Below are positions 9,540 to 57,375 of a stretch of 64,000 nucleotides of DNA, piece after piece. Location: positions 52,498-116,497 of the forward strand of contig BQKZ01000297.1 of assembly GCA_036244855.1 (NCBI GenBank). Direction: 5' to 3'. The first letter of the stretch is position 1. Each line of letters begins with the position of its first letter. A program made the translations under genes and the position numbers. The notes beneath the pieces are model-generated. The model worked only from the letters and a program-made list of their open reading frames with translations, was not told the DNA's origin and did no database searches. Source of the stretch: Temnopleurus reevesii. Taxonomy: Eukaryota > Echinodermata > Echinoidea > Temnopleuroida > Temnopleuridae.

Positions 9540-9606
9540 GAATCTGAAATATGCCATTTTCTACTTATTGCTGGAAAACCATTACAAGAACCTGTAGAAA
9601 GAGAAG
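9540..9606 (+). CDS. PIR: Pirin, penultimate coding exon (partial gene)
   Basis: Pirin is a nuclear, metal-binding protein of the cupin superfamily, described as a quercetinase-like enzyme and transcriptional co-regulator. This 67-bp exon follows a long pyrimidine tract ending in CAG (9539) and is followed by GTAAG (9607). Read from its first base (phase 0 acceptor) it gives ESEICHFLLIAG then KPLQEPVERE, plus one base. HF-LIAG-PL-EPV is the recognisable C-terminal cupin segment of pirins. It ends in phase 1; the leftover G joins AT of the exon at 50153 to make an Asp. The five residues between EPV and FVMNT then equal the vertebrate pirin spacing. Earlier exons were not found in 1-9539 and presumably lie outside the window. 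Confidence 0.87.
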
Positions 9607-14096: not shown

Positions 14097-14277
14097 TCTA
14101 GTCTCTGTTCGGATTGGTATTCTTGGCAATTCGGCAATCAGGAATATCCAGCTCAAAATGCTTCTGAGCATGATTTGAACTGATATAGATCTAGTCTCCG
14201 TTGAAATTGGTATTCTTGGCAATTCGACAATCAGGAATATCCAGCTCAAATTGCTTCTGAGCATGATTTGAATAGAT
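14097..14277 (-). pseudogene. Two decayed tandem copies of the nested gene's 3' coding end
   Basis: Immediately 3' of the stop codon of the minus-strand gene, the last ~90 bp of the exon recur twice. Boundaries are marked by TCTAGT at 14097, 14190 and 14277 (periods 93 and 87 bp, both multiples of 3). Each copy would repeat a peptide like SSNHAQK-FELDIPDCRIAKN followed by TAG, so the copies lie behind a stop and are untranslated in the native frame. A different frame stays open through all three copies but has no meaning. Substitutions and a 6-bp deletion separate the copies. Confidence 0.85.
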
Positions 14278-14591
14278 CTAGTATCCGTTGAAATTGGTAT
14301 TCTTGGCAATTCGGCAATCAGGAATATCCAGCTCAAATTGCTTCTGAGCATGATTCGAACTGATATAGATCCCCACGTAAGAGATCTCAAACTGCACATT
14401 GTCTTGCCATTCGATGATCGGCGTTGAGTCCCCCACCAGACCAACTTGGTAGTAGTTCTTTTCAAAGTCGATCCACCAGTGAGCGTCTTTCCGGCAATCC
14501 TCGTAAGACACAGATTTCAAATAATCTAAGCGAAAGAGAGATCGCTTAACCCTCACCATCCAGCCGTGCGTGTAGTGGAATACACAAAGTC
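14278..14591 (-). CDS. Nested secreted protein gene, exon 5: C-terminal half of FAMeT-like domain and stop
   Basis: Minus-strand exon after the acceptor 'aacttaaattacag'. It starts with GA, which with the last base of exon 4 makes AGA, and stays open for 103 codons to TAG at 14278-14280. Key stretch: HWWIDFEKNYYQVGL, then VGDSTPIIEWQD, then YVGIYI. The pattern W-I-x5-7-VG-x-G-x2-P-x3-W-x-D...YVG is typical of the farnesoic acid O-methyltransferase-like (Methyltransf_FA) domain, found in many extracellular invertebrate proteins. Despite the name, catalytic activity is not established for such modules. The last ~90 bp are repeated twice downstream. Confidence 0.72.
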
Positions 14592-17873: not shown

Positions 17874-18849
17874 CATACATCATGACACGTGACCAAAAGT
17901 TGCCGATGTGCATATAAAGTCACTGTATAGTGATATCATTGAAATATTCCTAACTTTCTTATTTATTTTACAATTTGCTTCAATTTTTTTAACCCTTTCA
18001 GGACGATAGAACACGTTTTGTGTTTTGGTCCAATAACTTTTGACGTAGTGCTCTAAAAATATACCAGATATATGAGCAGAAAGAGAACAAAATTCTACAC
18101 TAGATCTGACCTTTTTTATTCTATCACCATTTGCCGCTATATGCAGAGAATTTTTTTAATGAAAATAATCACTAAAATGGCCATAAATCCTTAAATTGGT
18201 AATGCAGAAATCATTTGAATATCACCATTTTCCACGCAAATTGGCAACTTTTCACTTTTTAACTCGCTTTTTGACAGAGAAGATTCCATATTGTAACATA
18301 ATTTCTAATTGCGACATTCTAAAAAGAGAATTAAAAATTTAAATGTTGCCAATTTAGGAAAGGAATAGTGATTGAAATTGTTGTAAAATAATTCCTGAAT
18401 GGGTTAATCTATGTGTCTGAATTTTGTGCTGTTTACCCATTGGCTACTTGATCCTGTACTCATATTTACTTGTGCCGAGACAGTCTGGTTCCAGCAGTCA
18501 ACTGGTTTAATAATCAAAGCAAAAATTTTCTAGCCCAACCCCAGCCTTAATAATTGTGAAGGAGTCAGACAAGCTATTCTCAACACGATATAAACTATTT
18601 CCGAAAAATTAAGTTGAACGCAGACAATAGATCCGTGCACCTTGTATTCAACTGTGTGCACACAACAATGACAAGCCAGTTCTGATTTCTGTAGCTGCTA
18701 AATTACAAATGGGCATTGAATTCGCGTTCGATCTAATTTTTTGGAATTAGGTTATATCGTTTTCTATAAGACTGAAAGCTGTTTCTGAGGTTTTATAGGT
18801 AACAGGTTGCCATGGGTTCTGACCGTATTGTACCTACTAGTATACTTAC

Positions 18850-18942
18850 ACTCGCAATTAGGCGAACTGAATCCGAAAGGGCATTCACACCCTGATTTGA
18901 ATCCTTGATGGATGATACTCCGTCCACGATTTTGACAAGGAC
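18850..18942 (-). CDS. Nested secreted protein gene, exon 3: EGF-like module
   Basis: A minus-strand exon of 93 bp with acceptor 'tatcacacaaag' and donor GTAAGT. It is phase 1 at both ends, as is usual for shuffled extracellular modules. It encodes PCQNRGRSII, then HQGFKSGCECPFGFSSPNCE. The CxCPxGFxxxxCE ending is the EGF signature. The position where a Cys normally follows the N-G-G turn is occupied by Ser/Ile, so one disulphide seems to be missing. EGF modules mediate extracellular protein contacts; no specific partner can be named. Confidence 0.78.
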
Positions 18943-19299
18943 CTTTGTGTGATACGTGAAGATGGTAGAAAAGACAAGAATTTTGTTTTATTTTGCAAAC
19001 ATACTGATTGCAATGGTGTCCATGCCCTATGATCAGAAGGGACAAAGTATAAAGTAATAGCTAGATGGATGGAAATAATTTCCATCCTTCTTATTTTGTG
19101 GAAGAATACTGAACAAGAGTCACACATGAGAATTTCTTTCGTGATCATGAAGCAATTGTGAATACATGTATAAAGATGTTCTGGAACATGCATGATGTTA
19201 AAAGTAAAATGTGAATAACACAACAGCTGAACACAATTGAAAGAAAACATGACAACAATAATGGTTCTCTCAGCTATTCTTATGTGTTGAAAGCAGTGG

Positions 19300-20280
19300 A
19301 TGAATACACCTCATGCACATTCCAAAACGGTTGGCATCCCCACATGCAGGAATGCAATTGCTTCAACCCTACCATACTTGGCATAATTGGATGTTGCACC
19401 ATTTGGTGTGCCACAGGGATTCATTTGTAGACCTTTCTTATTCATGCCATATACATGTATAAAGTCACATTGCTAAATAATACATTGTTTGGTTACCCAT
19501 GCAAGAATGCAATTGCTTAGCCCTGACTCACTTGTCAACATTGCATGTTGCACCACAGACTAAAATTCGGTGGGCCACAGGGATTCATTCATAGACCTTT
19601 CTTATTCATGCCATATATAAAATCACATGGCTATTTCCATTAGACTAAAAAATGTGTTCAGTTGCCCATACAGAAATGCAATCGCTTTAGCCCTGACTCA
19701 CTTGTCAACATTGCATGTTGCACCACAGACTAAAATTTGGTGTGCCATATGGATTCATTCTTATACCTTTCTTATTCATGCCATATATAAAATCACATGG
19801 CTATTTCCATTAGACTAAAATAAATTGTTTGGTTGTCCATACAGAAATGCAATCACTTTAGCCCTGACTCACTTGTCAACATTGCATGTTGCACCACAGA
19901 CTAAAATTTGGTGTGCCACATGGATTCATTCTTAGACCTTTCTTATTCATACCATATATAAAATCACATGGCTATTTCCATTAGACTAAAATAAATTGTT
20001 GTCTATACAGAAATGCAATCGCTTTTAATAGCCCTGACTCACTTGTCATCATTGCATGTTGCACCACAGACTAAAATTTGGTGTGCCACAGGGATTCATT
20101 TGTAGACCTTTCTTATTCATGCCATGTACATGTTTAAAGTCACATGGTTAAGTAAATTGTTGGTTACCCATGCAGGAATGCAATTGCTTAGGCCTCGTCT
20201 CACTGGCCATTATTGTATCTTGCATCACAGACTAAAACTTGATGTGCCACAGGGATTCATTCTCAGACCTTTCTTATTCA
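19300..20280. repeat. ~168-bp satellite-like tandem array, six copies
   Basis: The anchor 'ggattcatt' recurs at 19417, 19581, 19751, 19922, 20092 and 20252 (spacings 164, 170, 171, 170, 160). Units share 'gacctttcttattcatgcca', 'cagaaatgcaat' and 'gttgcaccacagactaaaa'. The array lies within intron 2 of the nested gene. Copies 2-5 are close to each other; the outer ones are more diverged. Confidence 0.9.
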
Positions 20281-20350
20281 TAATAATAATTATGATTAGA
20301 TAATTTATATAGTGCAGTCTATAAATAGATATACTCTACTGCACTGTGAT
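20280..20350. repeat. SINE-like tail fragment
   Basis: 'ataataataattatgatt' followed by 'atttatatagtgcagtc' resembles the ATT-rich end and adjoining body of the SINE at 24108. The head is absent. Confidence 0.45.
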
Positions 20351-44341: not shown

Positions 44342-44455
44342 CTCGTAGAAAAATATGCTATGATCTTGAAATGTGTATAGAAACTATATGTCATGGTATA
44401 TATCCCCAAAATTCACATTTCTTTAATCTTTACCAAAACTATACATGGGCTTTAA
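44342..44455 (-). mobile_element. Left-end fragment of the TTAAAGCCCATG element, cut by the gap
   Basis: Reverse complement of the first ~115 bp of copies A and C, ending 'aaactatacatgggctttaa'. Confidence 0.85.
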
Positions 44456-45199
44456 TGATGGATTAACAGTTCTTAATCTTTTTAAGAAGGTGATGGTATT
44501 CACATTGATTAATAATTGGGTACCCCCACCCCTCTAAAGAAAAACGGAAAAAGAATATTTCATTAAAGCAACAACACTTTGACACAACTATATTGATCAA
44601 TATTATTACTAATGCCAAGGAATGAATTTCCTTCTCCTGTAAAGAAACTTTGACATTTTTTATGTGAATATATGGCTTCTATGAAAGTTTTTCTTTGATC
44701 TTAAGTTAATAATGGGATGTAACAGGTCTTAATCTATTTAGGAAGGTGATGATATTCACATTGAGCTATAATTGAAGTCCCCCCCCCCCAAAAAAAAAAA
44801 AAGAATAAATAAATTGCTGAATAGAATATTTCATTAAAGCAACAACACTGACACAAACGTATTGATCAATATTATTTTGAATACAAAGTAATGGATTTCC
44901 TTGCTCCTACGATTTAAGATTTTCTTTGATCTTTGTTCAATAATGAGATTTAAATGGTCTTAATCTCTTTAGGAAGGTGAAAATGGCAATAGGATATTTC
45001 ATTATAGCAAAAACATATTGATCAATATTATTTTCAATACAAAGGAATGGATTTCCTTGATCCTTTAAAGAAACTAAAGAGGTCTTTTTTTGTAAATATA
45101 TGGTTCGTATGAGAGATTTTCTTTGATCTTATGTTAATAACGAAATTTAACTGGTACTAATCTGTTTAGGAAGGTGGTGATATCCAATGCTTTTGTGAT

Positions 45200-49443: not shown

Positions 49444-50038
49444 TTAAAGGTAGAATACTACTTTTGCAGCCTAAAATTTGACTTTCCAAGATTGTTGTGT
49501 TATGTTGAAGAGTACTAAATGTTAGAACTTATCACCTAAAATTTGACTTTCCAAGATTGTTGTGTTATGTTGAAGAGTACTAAATGTTAGAACTTATCAA
49601 CAATCAATTAAGCACAAAGATAGATAATGATAGGCGCATTTATAGTTATTCCAATAATAATTCTTCTATTCGGGCATCGACCTAATTCACCGTACGTTCA
49701 AAGTTCAAAACAGCCGTTAACCCCTCATTGACCAATAGCGCAAAAGTCTCTCTCAGCGCGTATTCTGTATGGTGTGGCAGTGTATTGAAGTGCGCACTGT
49801 ACGTGCTCTTACGTTTTGTGTGTGTGTGTGTGTGTGTGGTACCGGAATACGCTAGGAGTGTCGCGATACCGTTGGTTTCAAGATGAATTATGATACAATA
49901 GATTTTTATTTGAATTAAATATTCTGGACTAGATTCGACCAAAATACTTCAGAGAGGTTATCATTTTGGCATATCTGAGGTGCACAACAAGTTGTAAGCA
50001 TAACCGTAATATGTGCAAATGTAGTATTCTACCTTTAA
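49444..50038. mobile_element. TTAAAGGTAGAA element, copy 2, with internal 65-bp duplication
   Basis: Same termini and body as 38044-38538. 'cctaaaatttgactttccaa' onward is repeated exactly at 49470 and 49535. A (TG)n run lies at 49815-49838. It ends ~115 bp before the last pirin exon. Confidence 0.85.
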
Positions 50039-50152: not shown

Positions 50153-50286
50153 ATAAATTTGTGATGAATACAGTAGAGGAGGTAGAAGAAGCAATCAAGG
50201 ATCATCGGTTTGGACGCAACAGCTTTGAGAATGCTCCAGAGTGGAACTCCCAGTCTGCATTGGCATACTTGGACTCACAGTTCTAA
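50153..50286 (+). CDS. PIR: Pirin, last coding exon and stop
   Basis: Acceptor 'ctctcacatttgcag', then AT (completing an Asp codon with the G from 9606), then 43 codons and TAA at 50284. It encodes KFVMNTVEEVEEAIKDHRFG then RNSFENAPEW, the conserved FVMNT-x-EE-x2-AI...F-x3-RNGFE-type C-terminus of pirins. The tail NSQSALAYLDSQF is several residues longer than the end of vertebrate pirin, so it is lineage-specific. The 3' two-thirds of this exon (from about 50211) is the founder-like unit of the decayed array immediately downstream. Phase, spacing and family motif all agree with the exon at 9540. Confidence 0.88.
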
Positions 50287-51815
50287 ACGGTCAATTTGGG
50301 CTCAGCGGCTTCCAGAATGTTCTTGACCGGAACTTGCAGTCTACTTTTGCCTTCATAGACTCCCAATTCTAATTCATGATGAACCACGAGGAAGAGTTTC
50401 AGGACAATCAGTTTCGATGCAACGGCTTCAAGAACTCTCTGGAGTGGAACTTGGCCTATCTGGACTTCCTTTTCTAATCCATGATGAACCTCATAGAACA
50501 GCTTCAAAGACTTTTGCTTTTCGCGCAATGGCTTTGACAATGCTCCATAGTGGAACTCGCAGTAGGCTTTGGCCTACCTGAACTCCCAGTTCTAAACCGT
50601 CACTTTGGCCGCAAGTTCCAGAATGCTGTTGACTGGAAGTTGCATTCTGCTTTTGCCTACCAGACACCCAGTTCTAATCCATGATGAACCATGAGAAAGA
50701 GATGTAGGACAATGGTTGTGTGCAACGGCTTCAATAACTCTCTGGAGTGGAATCGGCAGTCTACTGTGGCCTATCTGGATTCCCAATGAAAAACTGTGCA
50801 GTTCTGCACCCACAGAATTCTGTAATCAAAGACCATCGCTTTGTATGCAAGGACTTAGGGGATGCTCAATTACTAGAACTCAATGTCTGCATTTGCCTAT
50901 CTGGACTTCAAGTTCTAGATCATTAGTGAACCATGTGGGAAGGGATCAAAGACCATTGATTTCGTCGCAACAGCTTTGAGAGCACTCCAGACTGGAACTA
51001 GCATTCGGCTTTGGCCTATCTTGACTCCCAGTATGAGCCTTTTGGTGCAACTCCGTTGAGAATGCTCCAGAGTGAAATTCATGAACTCCTTTGTCTGACC
51101 TAGACTCCCAATTATGATCTATGATGAACCATGGGGAATAGCTTCAAGGACAATTAGTTTGGGCACAACAGCTTCAAGAGCTCTTTGGACAAGAACTTGC
51201 AGTCTGCATTGGCCTATCTGGACTCCCAGTTCTAATCCATTATGAACCACATGGAACAACTTCAAAGATTATTGCTTTTTGGCACAATGGCTTTGAGAAT
51301 ACGCCAGAGTGGAACTTACAGTCTGCGTTGGCCTGTCTTGAGTCCCAGTTCTAAACATTCACCTTGGGCACAATAACTTTGAGAATGATTTGGACTGAAA
51401 CCCGCTGTCTACATAGACCTGCTTGGACTCCCAGTTCTAAACTACATTCAGCGATAGGAGATGATATCAAGAACCATCGCTTTGAGTCCAATGGCCTGGA
51501 GGTCTTCATAGTGGAACGCACAACCTGCCTTATCCTACCTAGACTCCTAGACTCAACTATGTTGAGCCCTAGGGGTGTGGGTTTCCAGCCTACAGTATAT
51601 GGACTCCCACTTCTAGACTACATCGAGCTTCAGAGGAGGGCAACAAGGGCTATCACCTCTGATGCAGCATCTTCGCGTAGTGCTCAAGAGTGGAAGTTGC
51701 AGTCTACTTTGGCCTATCAAGCTGCCCGGCCCAGTTCTAAACAACATTGAGCAGTAGGATGTGCCATTGTGAATCCCTTCCAGCTTTGGCCTACCTGACT
51801 GCAGGGTTTCCAAAG
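50287..51815 (+). pseudogene. Tandem array of ~14 decayed copies of the pirin terminal exon segment
   Basis: Each unit resembles the last ~75 bp of pirin coding sequence: a 'caacagctttgagaatgctc'-like start, 'cagagtggaact', 'gcagtct', 'ggcctatctggactcccagt' and TTCTAA. Units begin near 50294, 50408, 50518, 50600, 50712, 50838, 50957, 51038, 51158, 51277, 51363 and 51480; weaker ones follow at about 51570 and 51660. Spacers alternate between short ('aaaccgtcac', period ~82) and long ('atccatgatgaaccatg', period ~115). This gives a higher-order period of about 310-320 bp. Frames are broken by indels and most copies end at the same TAA. No acceptor precedes the units, so alternative last exons are unlikely. 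Confidence 0.85.
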
Positions 51816-51903
51816 TGGATAAGTATTTATTAATTTATTACATTTCACTATGACCTGGGTGTTGTTTTATCAAATTTTTATTGGAAAATCCCTGAAGAAC
51901 AAC

Positions 51904-52049
51904 AAGGTTGTGTTTTATAAAGCTGTCCGTAGAAGTAACCATTACTCTGTGCATGACTGGTGACCCTTTCCCAAGTGCTAACTGAGCAATATAAGAAAGG
52001 GTTATCAGCTGTGTGTAACTTTATGAAAACTTTCATGAAACACAACCTT
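51904..52049. mobile_element. 146-bp hairpin MITE
   Basis: 'aaggttgtgttttataaag' at the left pairs with 'ctttcatgaaacacaacctt' at the right. Inner arms share AAAGGGT / ACCCTTT. Confidence 0.7.
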
Positions 52050-53320
52050 CGCTATCATTTCTCATTTGAACTAAATGAGAAACTCAGAAGCATATCACCC
52101 AAAAGCAAGTTCTAATCATTCTTACATCTGTTCTTAAAAGAATGACTTGAAGAATGACTCGGATATGTTCTTGAGTGTCGCAGGGGCGAGATTCACATTT
52201 TAAGTGTAAGCAAAGACCATCAATCATTCTTAACTTAAGAACAGCTTGTGAAACACTATCTTGTCCCTGTTGTCTTCCGGAAGATTTAAACATCCATTGT
52301 TTATATCAAATATATTTTTGATAACTTAAAAACCGATTAAAGCAAAATGTTATATTGATATCCAGACGTTAATATTCAAAAGTGAATATTTACACCTTAA
52401 TAATGGCTGAGTATCCCTATGCATTACTACCTTGCATGAAAGAAGTTTTAAACATAAAGAGCAGTCTCTGAAGCGATATCATAATCGTTTCTTCCAATGG
52501 AACTTTATTTTCAATTCTGATTTTTTAGTTCTTATGAAGACACAAAATTTCTGTGGACATATACTAAGTTTGCTGTGAGGAAGCTGAAATTGGTTTTTAA
52601 AAGAAGCATGGCTGACTGAAATGTTTTGATTTGATTGCACTTTTGGTATTTCATGGGTCATACCGAAACCTTCCAGAGGTATTCTTAAAATTAGATTATT
52701 CAGTTGTTAAAGTATTCATGTACATGTTTTATGCATTTCTTACTGCCTACATTTATATCTATCTAAATGTGTTTTAATTTCCAGCTCATTTCTAGTAGGA
52801 AATTTGCGGGATGAAATATTTCTTCGTTTATGTGGATCTTTCACATATTTTCTCCTCTTCTTTCCACTATTCTAGATGACTATATTCTACTCAGTGTGTG
52901 ATACTTGCCATTATCTTGTCATCGATATATCGAAAAATGACAATTATTCCTATCTCATTGCCTAGTCCGCCTGTACAGACCCTTGGGTTTCGTTGTGCGC
53001 ACACACACAGAGTGATAAGGGTATGCAGTGTGTGTCTGCATGCTCTCCCCAATGCTGTATATGTGTGATGTAGTCACACACTATGCATACCCTGTATCAT
53101 GATCTGCGCATGCACACACCGAAAGTCTAGGGTATGTGCTTGCAAACTACTCATTGCCTAACTTGCTTTGTTGAATATGAAAATGAGATTACAACGTAAT
53201 CCATTCTATAGCAGGTCGACTCTGATGTTACTTGCAAATGCATCTTTTAGTTGTATCAAAACTGCACAAAACGACTCATGTTCTGCTGAAATTTTTGAAT
53301 GTGCCGTGAAATTTGATTAC
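52050..53320. other. No gene seen
   Basis: AT-rich sequence. A CA/TG-rich imperfect inverted repeat lies at about 52985-53135 ('agggtatgcagtgtgtg' / 'cacacactatgcataccct'). Confidence 0.45.
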
Positions 53321-56547: not shown

Positions 56548-56821
56548 TTACAGGGGTGCAGTAATGCCCCCCTCGGTGTCCCTTGAGACACCCCCATTTT
56601 CTATCACAGGATGGATAACATGTTGAGGAAGGAATTTGTTTGATCCCGAAGAAATTGGGTCAATAATTTGTTTCCAAATCAGGGCCAATTCATCAGTAAT
56701 TTGTGTAGGAATAATGATAATATTGTGGTTTTCATTGAAGTACTGCTTCATATTGATGGTACAGTATTGGGTCTGGCAGGTGATGTGGGAAATTTGTAAT
56801 GCTTTGGCAGACTGAGTGTCT
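56548..56821 (-). other. Unassigned open frame
   Basis: About 90 codons are open on the minus strand, including QYFNENHNIIIIPTQITDEL and KFLPQHVIHPVIENGGVSRD, ending at TAA. Codon content looks more protein-like than most frames here. I recognise no family, and a TTAAAGCCC element interrupts the sequence just upstream. Possibly a fragment of an old coding element. Confidence 0.2.
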
Positions 56822-56856
56822 TATAACACCTGTTCGGTTTGGTGCTAGGGTGGGAT

Positions 56857-57375
56857 TTAAAGCCCATGTATAGTTTTTGTAAAGATTAAAGAAATGTGAA
56901 TTTTGGGGATATATACCATGATATATAGTTTCTATACACATTTCAAGATCATAGCATATTTTTCTACAAGCGAATTCTTTTGAAAATTTGAATTTGACCG
57001 TTAAATCGTATTTAGCGCCCTCTCTTGGTTATAACAATATTTTGCTTCTTATCGGGCATATAGAAAATTATTTCCAAGATTTTATTAAAGCATGCTAAAA
57101 AGGAATACATAAAGAATAAATTCTGAAATTTTTATCCAATTCTGTTCATGAGAAGCTGTCCTTTATCAAAAAAGAAAATATTGAATTCGCGTCGGGGGCT
57201 ACAAAGCTAAAATATTTTCCACACTATAGGTTATAACTTTTCCAAAACTTGTTAATTTTTCATACAATCTTTTGTACAACATGTTCATGATATCATGTTT
57301 CATTTTAAGTAGATTTGAAGACAAAATTTGGCGATAAAAATATTCGCTTTTACCAAAACTATACTTGGGCTTTAA
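56857..57375 (+). mobile_element. Full-length TTAAAGCCCATG element (~519 bp), copy C
   Basis: TTAA-bounded, nearly identical to copy A (11236-11755) throughout, so A and C probably moved recently. Internal 'tttagcgccctctcttggtt' present. The open frames on it are shadows of the repeat. Confidence 0.88.

Follow-up and report, generated by a model that had tools for sequence, protein, structure and literature searches.

Tandem duplication of exons, including exons of untranslated regions (UTRs), is reported to be abundant in passages of one paper (PMC9013439), and those sections of the Exonize paper that classify such events (PMC12343006) state that in vertebrate genes partial, inter-boundary and intronic duplications outnumber full ones when counted by gene. 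Higher-order satellites have been reviewed separately, and the seeds named in portions of that review are ribosomal DNA (rDNA) spacers and transposable elements (PMC5615363). Here we describe a tandem array that has properties of both, and that lies directly behind the stop codon of a pirin gene in a 64,000-nucleotide stretch of the sea urchin Temnopleurus reevesii (contig C297, positions 52498-116497, in an assembly of 558 Mb and 10433 contigs). We refer to the whole stretch as the window.

As with the tandem exon duplications treated in those passages (PMC9013439) and the classes set out by Exonize (PMC12343006), the array places copies of exon sequence, some of them degenerate, beside the exon in one gene; unlike the duplications described there, it consists of about 13 stop-spanning copies that have no acceptor and are ordered in higher-order triplets. 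With minisatellites and with higher-order satellites as outlined in the portions of the review cited above, it shares tandem units of roughly 80-130 bp, distinct unit types and amplification in blocks, whereas its seed is a live coding exon rather than an rDNA spacer or a transposable element (PMC5615363), and the search gave only one locus for it. There is also a likeness to mutually exclusive terminal exons of the pip type, as presented in part of PMC9013439, and to Dscam-type arrays, in that tandem copies of one exon lie within a gene; in contrast to these, a simple scan finds no acceptor-like site before the scored pirin copies, and most of the copies carry in-frame stops. Among the titles listed from the open-licence PMC literature none describes a pirin array, which is no proof of absence. 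To our knowledge, the less usual features are a live exon as seed, a unit that spans the stop codon, the triplet order and the occurrence of three such arrays close together. We regard the array as genuine and instructive, though it belongs to a kind of duplication that is already known.

The gene can be assigned from its last two coding exons, which are separated by an intron of 40.5 kb. Over the 66 residues searched they are 88% identical to the pirin of Strongylocentrotus purpuratus, 85% to that of Lytechinus variegatus and 70% to that of Diadema setosum, and when joined they match the Pirin_C domain (PF05726, E 1.9e-10). Over 42 residues, the last exon reaches 92.9% amino acid identity with the S. 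purpuratus protein and 90.5% with that of L. variegatus, and a likeness to human pirin is seen in its first half (53% across 32 residues; human sequence checked against 1j1l). Its C-terminus, including YLDSQF, is common to the pirins of the three sea urchins, and because the protein that ends in this motif is shared in this way, the exon is the source of the array, as the initial annotation had proposed. When the L. variegatus protein was compared with the assembly, all five matches fell on contig C297, two of them being array copies. Sea-urchin pirins seem to be of two kinds: compared with P0002 (L. variegatus), identity is 53% for P0018 (L. pictus), 54% for P0061 (D. antillarum) and 59% for P0003 (D. 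setosum), the records within each genus coming from different species. The gene in the window is of the P0002 kind.

Directly after the stop there are 13 recognisable, head-to-tail copies of the 3′ part of the last exon (50287-51740), all on the + strand, so that the extra exon sequence stands beside the exon in the same gene. Two further fragments (U13 and U15 in the table) were judged by eye and not scored as units. A blastn search with the exon gave 12 matches within 50388-51716 of the window (65-77% identity, E 3.4e-16 to 1.9e-5), and nowhere else in the 64 kb was there a match better than E 2.7. With nhmmer, the same query returned 14 rows, namely the exon and 13 copies, at E <= 7.6e-4 in the first pass and <= 2e-14 in the last iteration, and no rows in the window outside 50154-51717. 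One minus-strand row (51238-51192, E 0.029) was present in a single iteration only, and the final profile search of the window contained no inverted copies. In a self-match spectrum over lags 40-799, the best score was 169, and 100 mononucleotide shuffles reached at most 14; Tandem Repeats Finder (TRF) at score 50 did not report the array. The G+C content of the array is 46%, that of the exon 43% and that of the surroundings 33-34%. Searching the whole assembly with the array DNA yielded one place and one scored candidate, and the array thus occupies about 1.6 kb at one place in its own genome, at limited sensitivity, whereas satellite families form large arrays at several or many loci. The initial annotation had described about 14 units made from the last exon, and had named absence of homology to the exon, or dispersal of the array as an unrelated repeat, as outcomes that would speak against this. 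Homology is borne out by both blastn and nhmmer, dispersal was not seen at the sensitivity used, and the count stands at 13 scored copies with the two by-eye fragments in addition.

The units fall into types and follow a higher-order pattern. By length and position their order is B(short)-C-A, B-C-[extra]-A, B-C-A, B..., with spacings from unit end to unit end of 86, 105, 118, 82, 109, 132, 114, 81, 122, 119, 86, 106, 69 and 125 (ends set by hand, four units having no stop in the alignment). The strongest self-match lag is 306, followed by 760, 748, 440, 320 and 121. A tree groups U1 with U4 (support 87), U2 with U5 (85), these two with U9 (82) and, weakly, U3 with U7 and U10 (63). Within type A (U3, U7, U10) p-distances are 0.20-0.23 and within type C (U2, U5, U9) 0.18-0.25, compared with 0.23-0.40 between types, so that by these distances and by the lags of 306 and 320, units at corresponding places of the triplets are more alike than neighbours. 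Among the short units, only U1 and U4 (0.21) fit type B by p-distance; U11 (0.32) and U8 (0.38-0.40) do not. The triplet period that had been claimed is therefore real, although its register is not regular: an extra unit, U6, makes the A-to-A steps 309, 437 and 322, and position 50838, which the initial annotation had listed for this period, falls within this unit.

The initial annotation had also described two spacer types. The spacings do not have two fixed values but vary from 69 to 132, and the spacers are themselves partly exon sequence. The nhmmer match starts at exon base 28-42 in all nine long units and at base 51-57 in the four short ones (U1, U4, U8, U11). Further out, TCCATGATGAACC-like sequence forms the start of the long units of types A and C; another left end, D, is shared by U12, U14 and both fragments. 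When compared with the 5′ part of the exon, the D consensus (four units, two of them the by-eye fragments) was equalled by 0, 2 and 3 of 2000 shuffles under three gap settings, and the A/C consensus (six units) by 24, 11 and 120; in none of the 18 control comparisons, which used other stretches, did fewer than 171 of 2000 shuffles do as well. Four of 11 single spacers matched the 5′ part of the exon better than shuffles did (0, 10, 16 and 37 of 1000 equal), and the other seven were indistinguishable from them (at least 98 of 1000 equal). The long spacers thus appear to be partly derived from the exon, clearly so for the D consensus and less clearly for A/C.

Table. Coordinates of the pirin exons, the array units and the neighbouring exon-edge arrays (positions in the window unless stated otherwise)
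Feature	Position	Strand	Evidence or remark
Penultimate coding exon of pirin (ESEICHFLLIAGKPLQEPVEREG)	9540..9606	+	tblastn with pirins; Pirin_C PF05726 when joined to last exon
Last coding exon of pirin with splice acceptor (E0)	50153..50286	+	Ends SALAYLDSQF-stop; array seed
Copy U1, short, type B	50287..50372	+	nhmmer; groups with U4
Copy U2, type C	50373..50477	+	blastn, nhmmer, tree
Copy U3, type A	50478..50595	+	blastn, nhmmer, tree
Copy U4, short, type B	50596..50677	+	blastn, nhmmer, tree
Copy U5, type C	50678..50790	+	blastn, nhmmer, tree
Copy U6, extra unit breaking triplet register	50791..50918	+	blastn, nhmmer; with U12 in tree, support 60
Copy U7, type A	50919..51035	+	blastn, nhmmer, tree
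Copy U8, short; B by length and position only, sequence outside B group	51036..51114	+	blastn, nhmmer, distances, tree
Copy U9, type C	51115..51235	+	blastn, nhmmer, tree
Copy U10, type A	51236..51354	+	blastn, nhmmer, tree
Copy U11, short; B by length and position, not firmly placed in tree	51355..51440	+	blastn, nhmmer, tree
Copy U12, type D left end	51441..51553	+	blastn, nhmmer, spacer tests
Fragment U13, by eye	51554..51615	+	Sequence only
Copy U14, type D left end	51616..51740	+	blastn, nhmmer, spacer consensus test
Fragment U15, by eye, array end	51741..51815	+	Sequence only
SSISTRTPTMFLDVELDGKASFTQAIPQGWNACIYILSGKLDIG pirin exon and upstream array	L007:6869-7795 (C297, outside window)		Possible decoy acceptors
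Terminal exon of Methyltransf_FA-like gene, within the 40.5-kb pirin intron	14278..14591	-	Open frame and acceptor; PF12248
Two further tandem copies of the last ~90 bases and stop of the Methyltransf_FA-like exon	14100..14277	-	TRF 87 bp x3, 88%

The exon has been conserved and the copies have decayed. They differ from one another by 18-46%, and nine of the 13 contain in-frame stops, 14 in total, if the frame follows the columns of the alignment and insertions are ignored; the exon has none. Changes are spread evenly over codon positions 1, 2 and 3 in U1, U4 and U11 (13, 12, 12), in U2, U5 and U9 (10, 7, 7) and in U6, U8, U12 and U14 (22, 17, 22). The five differences that are private or nearly private to the exon number 1, 0 and 4 at these positions. 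We considered coding constraint on the copies, which was suggested by an excess of third-position differences from the exon (26, 17 and 41.5%), and rejected it, since three of the four copy groups show no such excess; part of the excess is due to the exon's own changes, four of the five private ones being at third positions. By their in-frame stops and, in most, their even decay, the copies appear to be dead. At two sites they nevertheless differ from the exon in an informative way. Where S. purpuratus, L. variegatus and D. setosum have glycine and the window exon serine, six of 12 copies have glycine and three serine, and where the same three species have aspartate and the window exon glutamate, each residue occurs in five of 13 copies. 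The array copies thus appear to keep, in part, an older state of the pirin exon.

We consider it very probable that this is a single-locus and now inert tandem array, formed from the last pirin exon by ordinary duplication across an exon edge. The following scenario, with its breakpoints, its sequence of events and its premise that the array has no function, is inferred. An initial tandem duplication would have run from a point inside the last exon to one at or immediately behind the stop codon. In such a stop-spanning event the upstream copy would stay complete, with acceptor, coding sequence and stop, and the extra copy would fall in 3′ untranslated DNA; because one complete exon remains and the protein is unchanged, selection would not remove the extra copy. 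Later rounds would have produced units with different left ends, and B-C-A blocks of three may then have been amplified by unequal exchange or slippage, giving the period of ~306-322 bp. The copies would have decayed free of coding constraint, with the exon keeping its protein and changing mainly at third codon positions. A duplication that runs from an intron into an internal exon would similarly be protein-neutral, the complete copy in that case being the last one. A neighbourhood rich in tandem duplications would favour events of either kind.

Several observations do not sit easily with this scenario. The changes of type A lean to third positions (6, 8, 15; chi-square p 0.10), as do the differences between the exon and the type A copies (17, 8, 37, summed over three pairs), the differences between types A, B and C (0.32, 0.25, 0.39), six disjoint pairs of copies (37, 37, 50; p 0.13) and the copies relative to their own consensus (0.225, 0.168, 0.251). 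This lean could stem from gene conversion involving the exon, or from triplets that budded off the exon repeatedly, at different times; with the constraint reading dropped, type A and the between-type comparison stay slightly odd. As to the structure of the array, U8 and U11 fall outside the group of the two remaining short units, U1 and U4, the tree is weak at depth (support 23-46) and does not place the exon firmly, the triplet register is broken once by U6, and the outermost 5′ parts of the A/C units show only a weak link to the exon. Finally, copies with the divergence seen in the array could escape the DNA search of the genome.

Among the alternatives, the least improbable is that the array has been retained in the 3′ UTR of pirin with a function there, for example through sense near-copies to which regulators of the coding exon would bind. 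A signal scan finds no AATAAA or ATTAAA between the pirin stop and 52336, the weak variant AATGAA being present at 50785 and TATAAA at 51916, so that a long 3′ UTR is permitted and would include the array, which in itself shows nothing. The exon-like composition of the array could be read in the same direction, but it is explained by descent, and the in-frame stops, the indels, the even codon-position decay in most copies and the lack of inverted copies in the final profile search all speak against a retained function, which we think very unlikely. A reading in which the units are tandem alternative terminal exons, used singly to give pirin different C-termini as in Drosophila pip, fits the copies still less well, and we hold it to be highly improbable: a simple pyrimidine-AG scan of 50287-52200 detects a single acceptor-like site (51774), which lies inside the last by-eye fragment, and with stops in nine of 13 copies the units do not each combine splice sites with an open frame.

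The direction of descent might also be reversed, with a satellite or dispersed repeat present first and pirin adopting one of its units as last exon. Short repeats can be exonised; against this, the array was found at one place in the genome at the sensitivity used, and the coding sequence is old, as the identity with D. setosum and the likeness of the first half to human pirin attest. This order of events therefore seems no more credible than alternative terminal exons. That the array is an assembly artefact is scarcely to be entertained. The same contig does seem to contain one, a 1738-base repeat that is 99.9% identical around a single N (L008), but the divergence among the array copies is far beyond that of alleles or misjoined reads.

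The preferred scenario of exon-edge duplication has parallels nearby. Contig positions 22501-52497 were examined for the rest of the pirin gene, with N accounting for 6391 of 10000 bases in the stretch L007 and 9901 of 9997 in L009. The internal pirin exon SSISTRTPTMFLDVELDGKASFTQAIPQGWNACIYILSGKLDIG (L007:7666-7795) has four tandem partial copies on its 5′ side, each of which has a pyrimidine tract and an AG acceptor together with roughly the opening half of the exon, and the five sequences are 72-89% identical to one another. The other parallel is the terminal exon of the gene within the pirin intron (PF12248, E 1.3e-4; its 22.2 bits lie below the curated cut-off of 24.2), whose tail and stop occur three times in a row with 90-93% identity. 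Two paralogous exons in the same genome have open frames ending in LDIPNCELIIPV and LDIPNCEIIRSE, and neither has tail copies within 1.5 kb; one length-limited search for relatives of the exon gave none among six candidates at E <= 0.01. With one edge duplication 5′ of an internal exon of pirin and another at the stop codon of a second gene, the process recurs in this neighbourhood. The L008 duplication, which includes another pirin exon (L008:422-3898), was considered as a fourth case and set aside as a likely assembly artefact; it lay outside the radius used for that exon in the count given below.

Edge arrays were present at three of the five exons examined on C297, the first of which was chosen because its array had already been noticed. 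The region is itself rich in duplications: tandem duplications with lags of 50-400, counting simple repeats, make up 9312 of the 64000 bases of the window (14.5%, 21 clusters) and 2012 bases of L010, the next 10000 bases downstream, compared with 4145 of 98786 non-N bases (4.2%, 16 clusters) in 16 stretches sampled from large contigs at a fixed offset; of these stretches, four consist wholly of N and two mostly. One block shuffle each of the window and of the sampled stretches gave zero coverage. With arrays at 14.5% of positions, three of five exons would be hit by chance in about 2% of cases, by a hand calculation that lets coverage stand only roughly for the chance that an exon edge is hit and that includes the pre-selected first case. 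A preference of tandem arrays for exon edges is thus suggested, not shown. In all three cases (the first again pre-selected) the array lies on the predicted side, 3′ of the live exon when it spans the stop and 5′ when it spans the acceptor. It is a tentative idea, which we think somewhat doubtful, that minisatellites in this genome are seeded preferentially by exon edges and that protein-neutral "exon-edge arrays" exist at many genes, those across a stop lying always 3′ of the live exon and those across an acceptor always 5′; the evidence for its generality comes from exons on a single contig plus two paralogs.

Some other features of the window may be mentioned. The last pirin intron contains inverted arms of 25 bp (96%) at 49444-49468 and 50014-50038, about 570 bp apart, in the manner of a small DNA element, and between them a perfect 65-bp x2 duplication (49470-49599, TRF). 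A further array at 19401-20281 has five units of 170 bp and a dimer period of 341 bp (TRF), and its frames read FGVPQGFI..RPFLF-like pieces, which may resemble a reverse-transcriptase motif of long interspersed nuclear elements (LINEs). Nearly alike open frames (KICYDLEMCIETI.HGIYPQNSHFFNLY.NYTWAL) on opposite strands, at 44342-44463 (+) and 56735-57028 (-), perhaps belong to a dispersed repeat or element. The open frame at 18767-19060 (-) has an EGF-like cysteine pattern and gave no Pfam match at E <= 0.1.

Finally, we note what the pirin array may mean for the evolution of sea-urchin genes. The scenario offers a simple rule for which partial exon duplications persist. The dead sister copies would record older states of the living exon, as in the six of 12 that keep the glycine of three other sea urchins. 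If exon-edge arrays prove to be common, they would be a source of new 3′ UTRs, of decoy acceptors and of errors in gene annotation in sea urchins.
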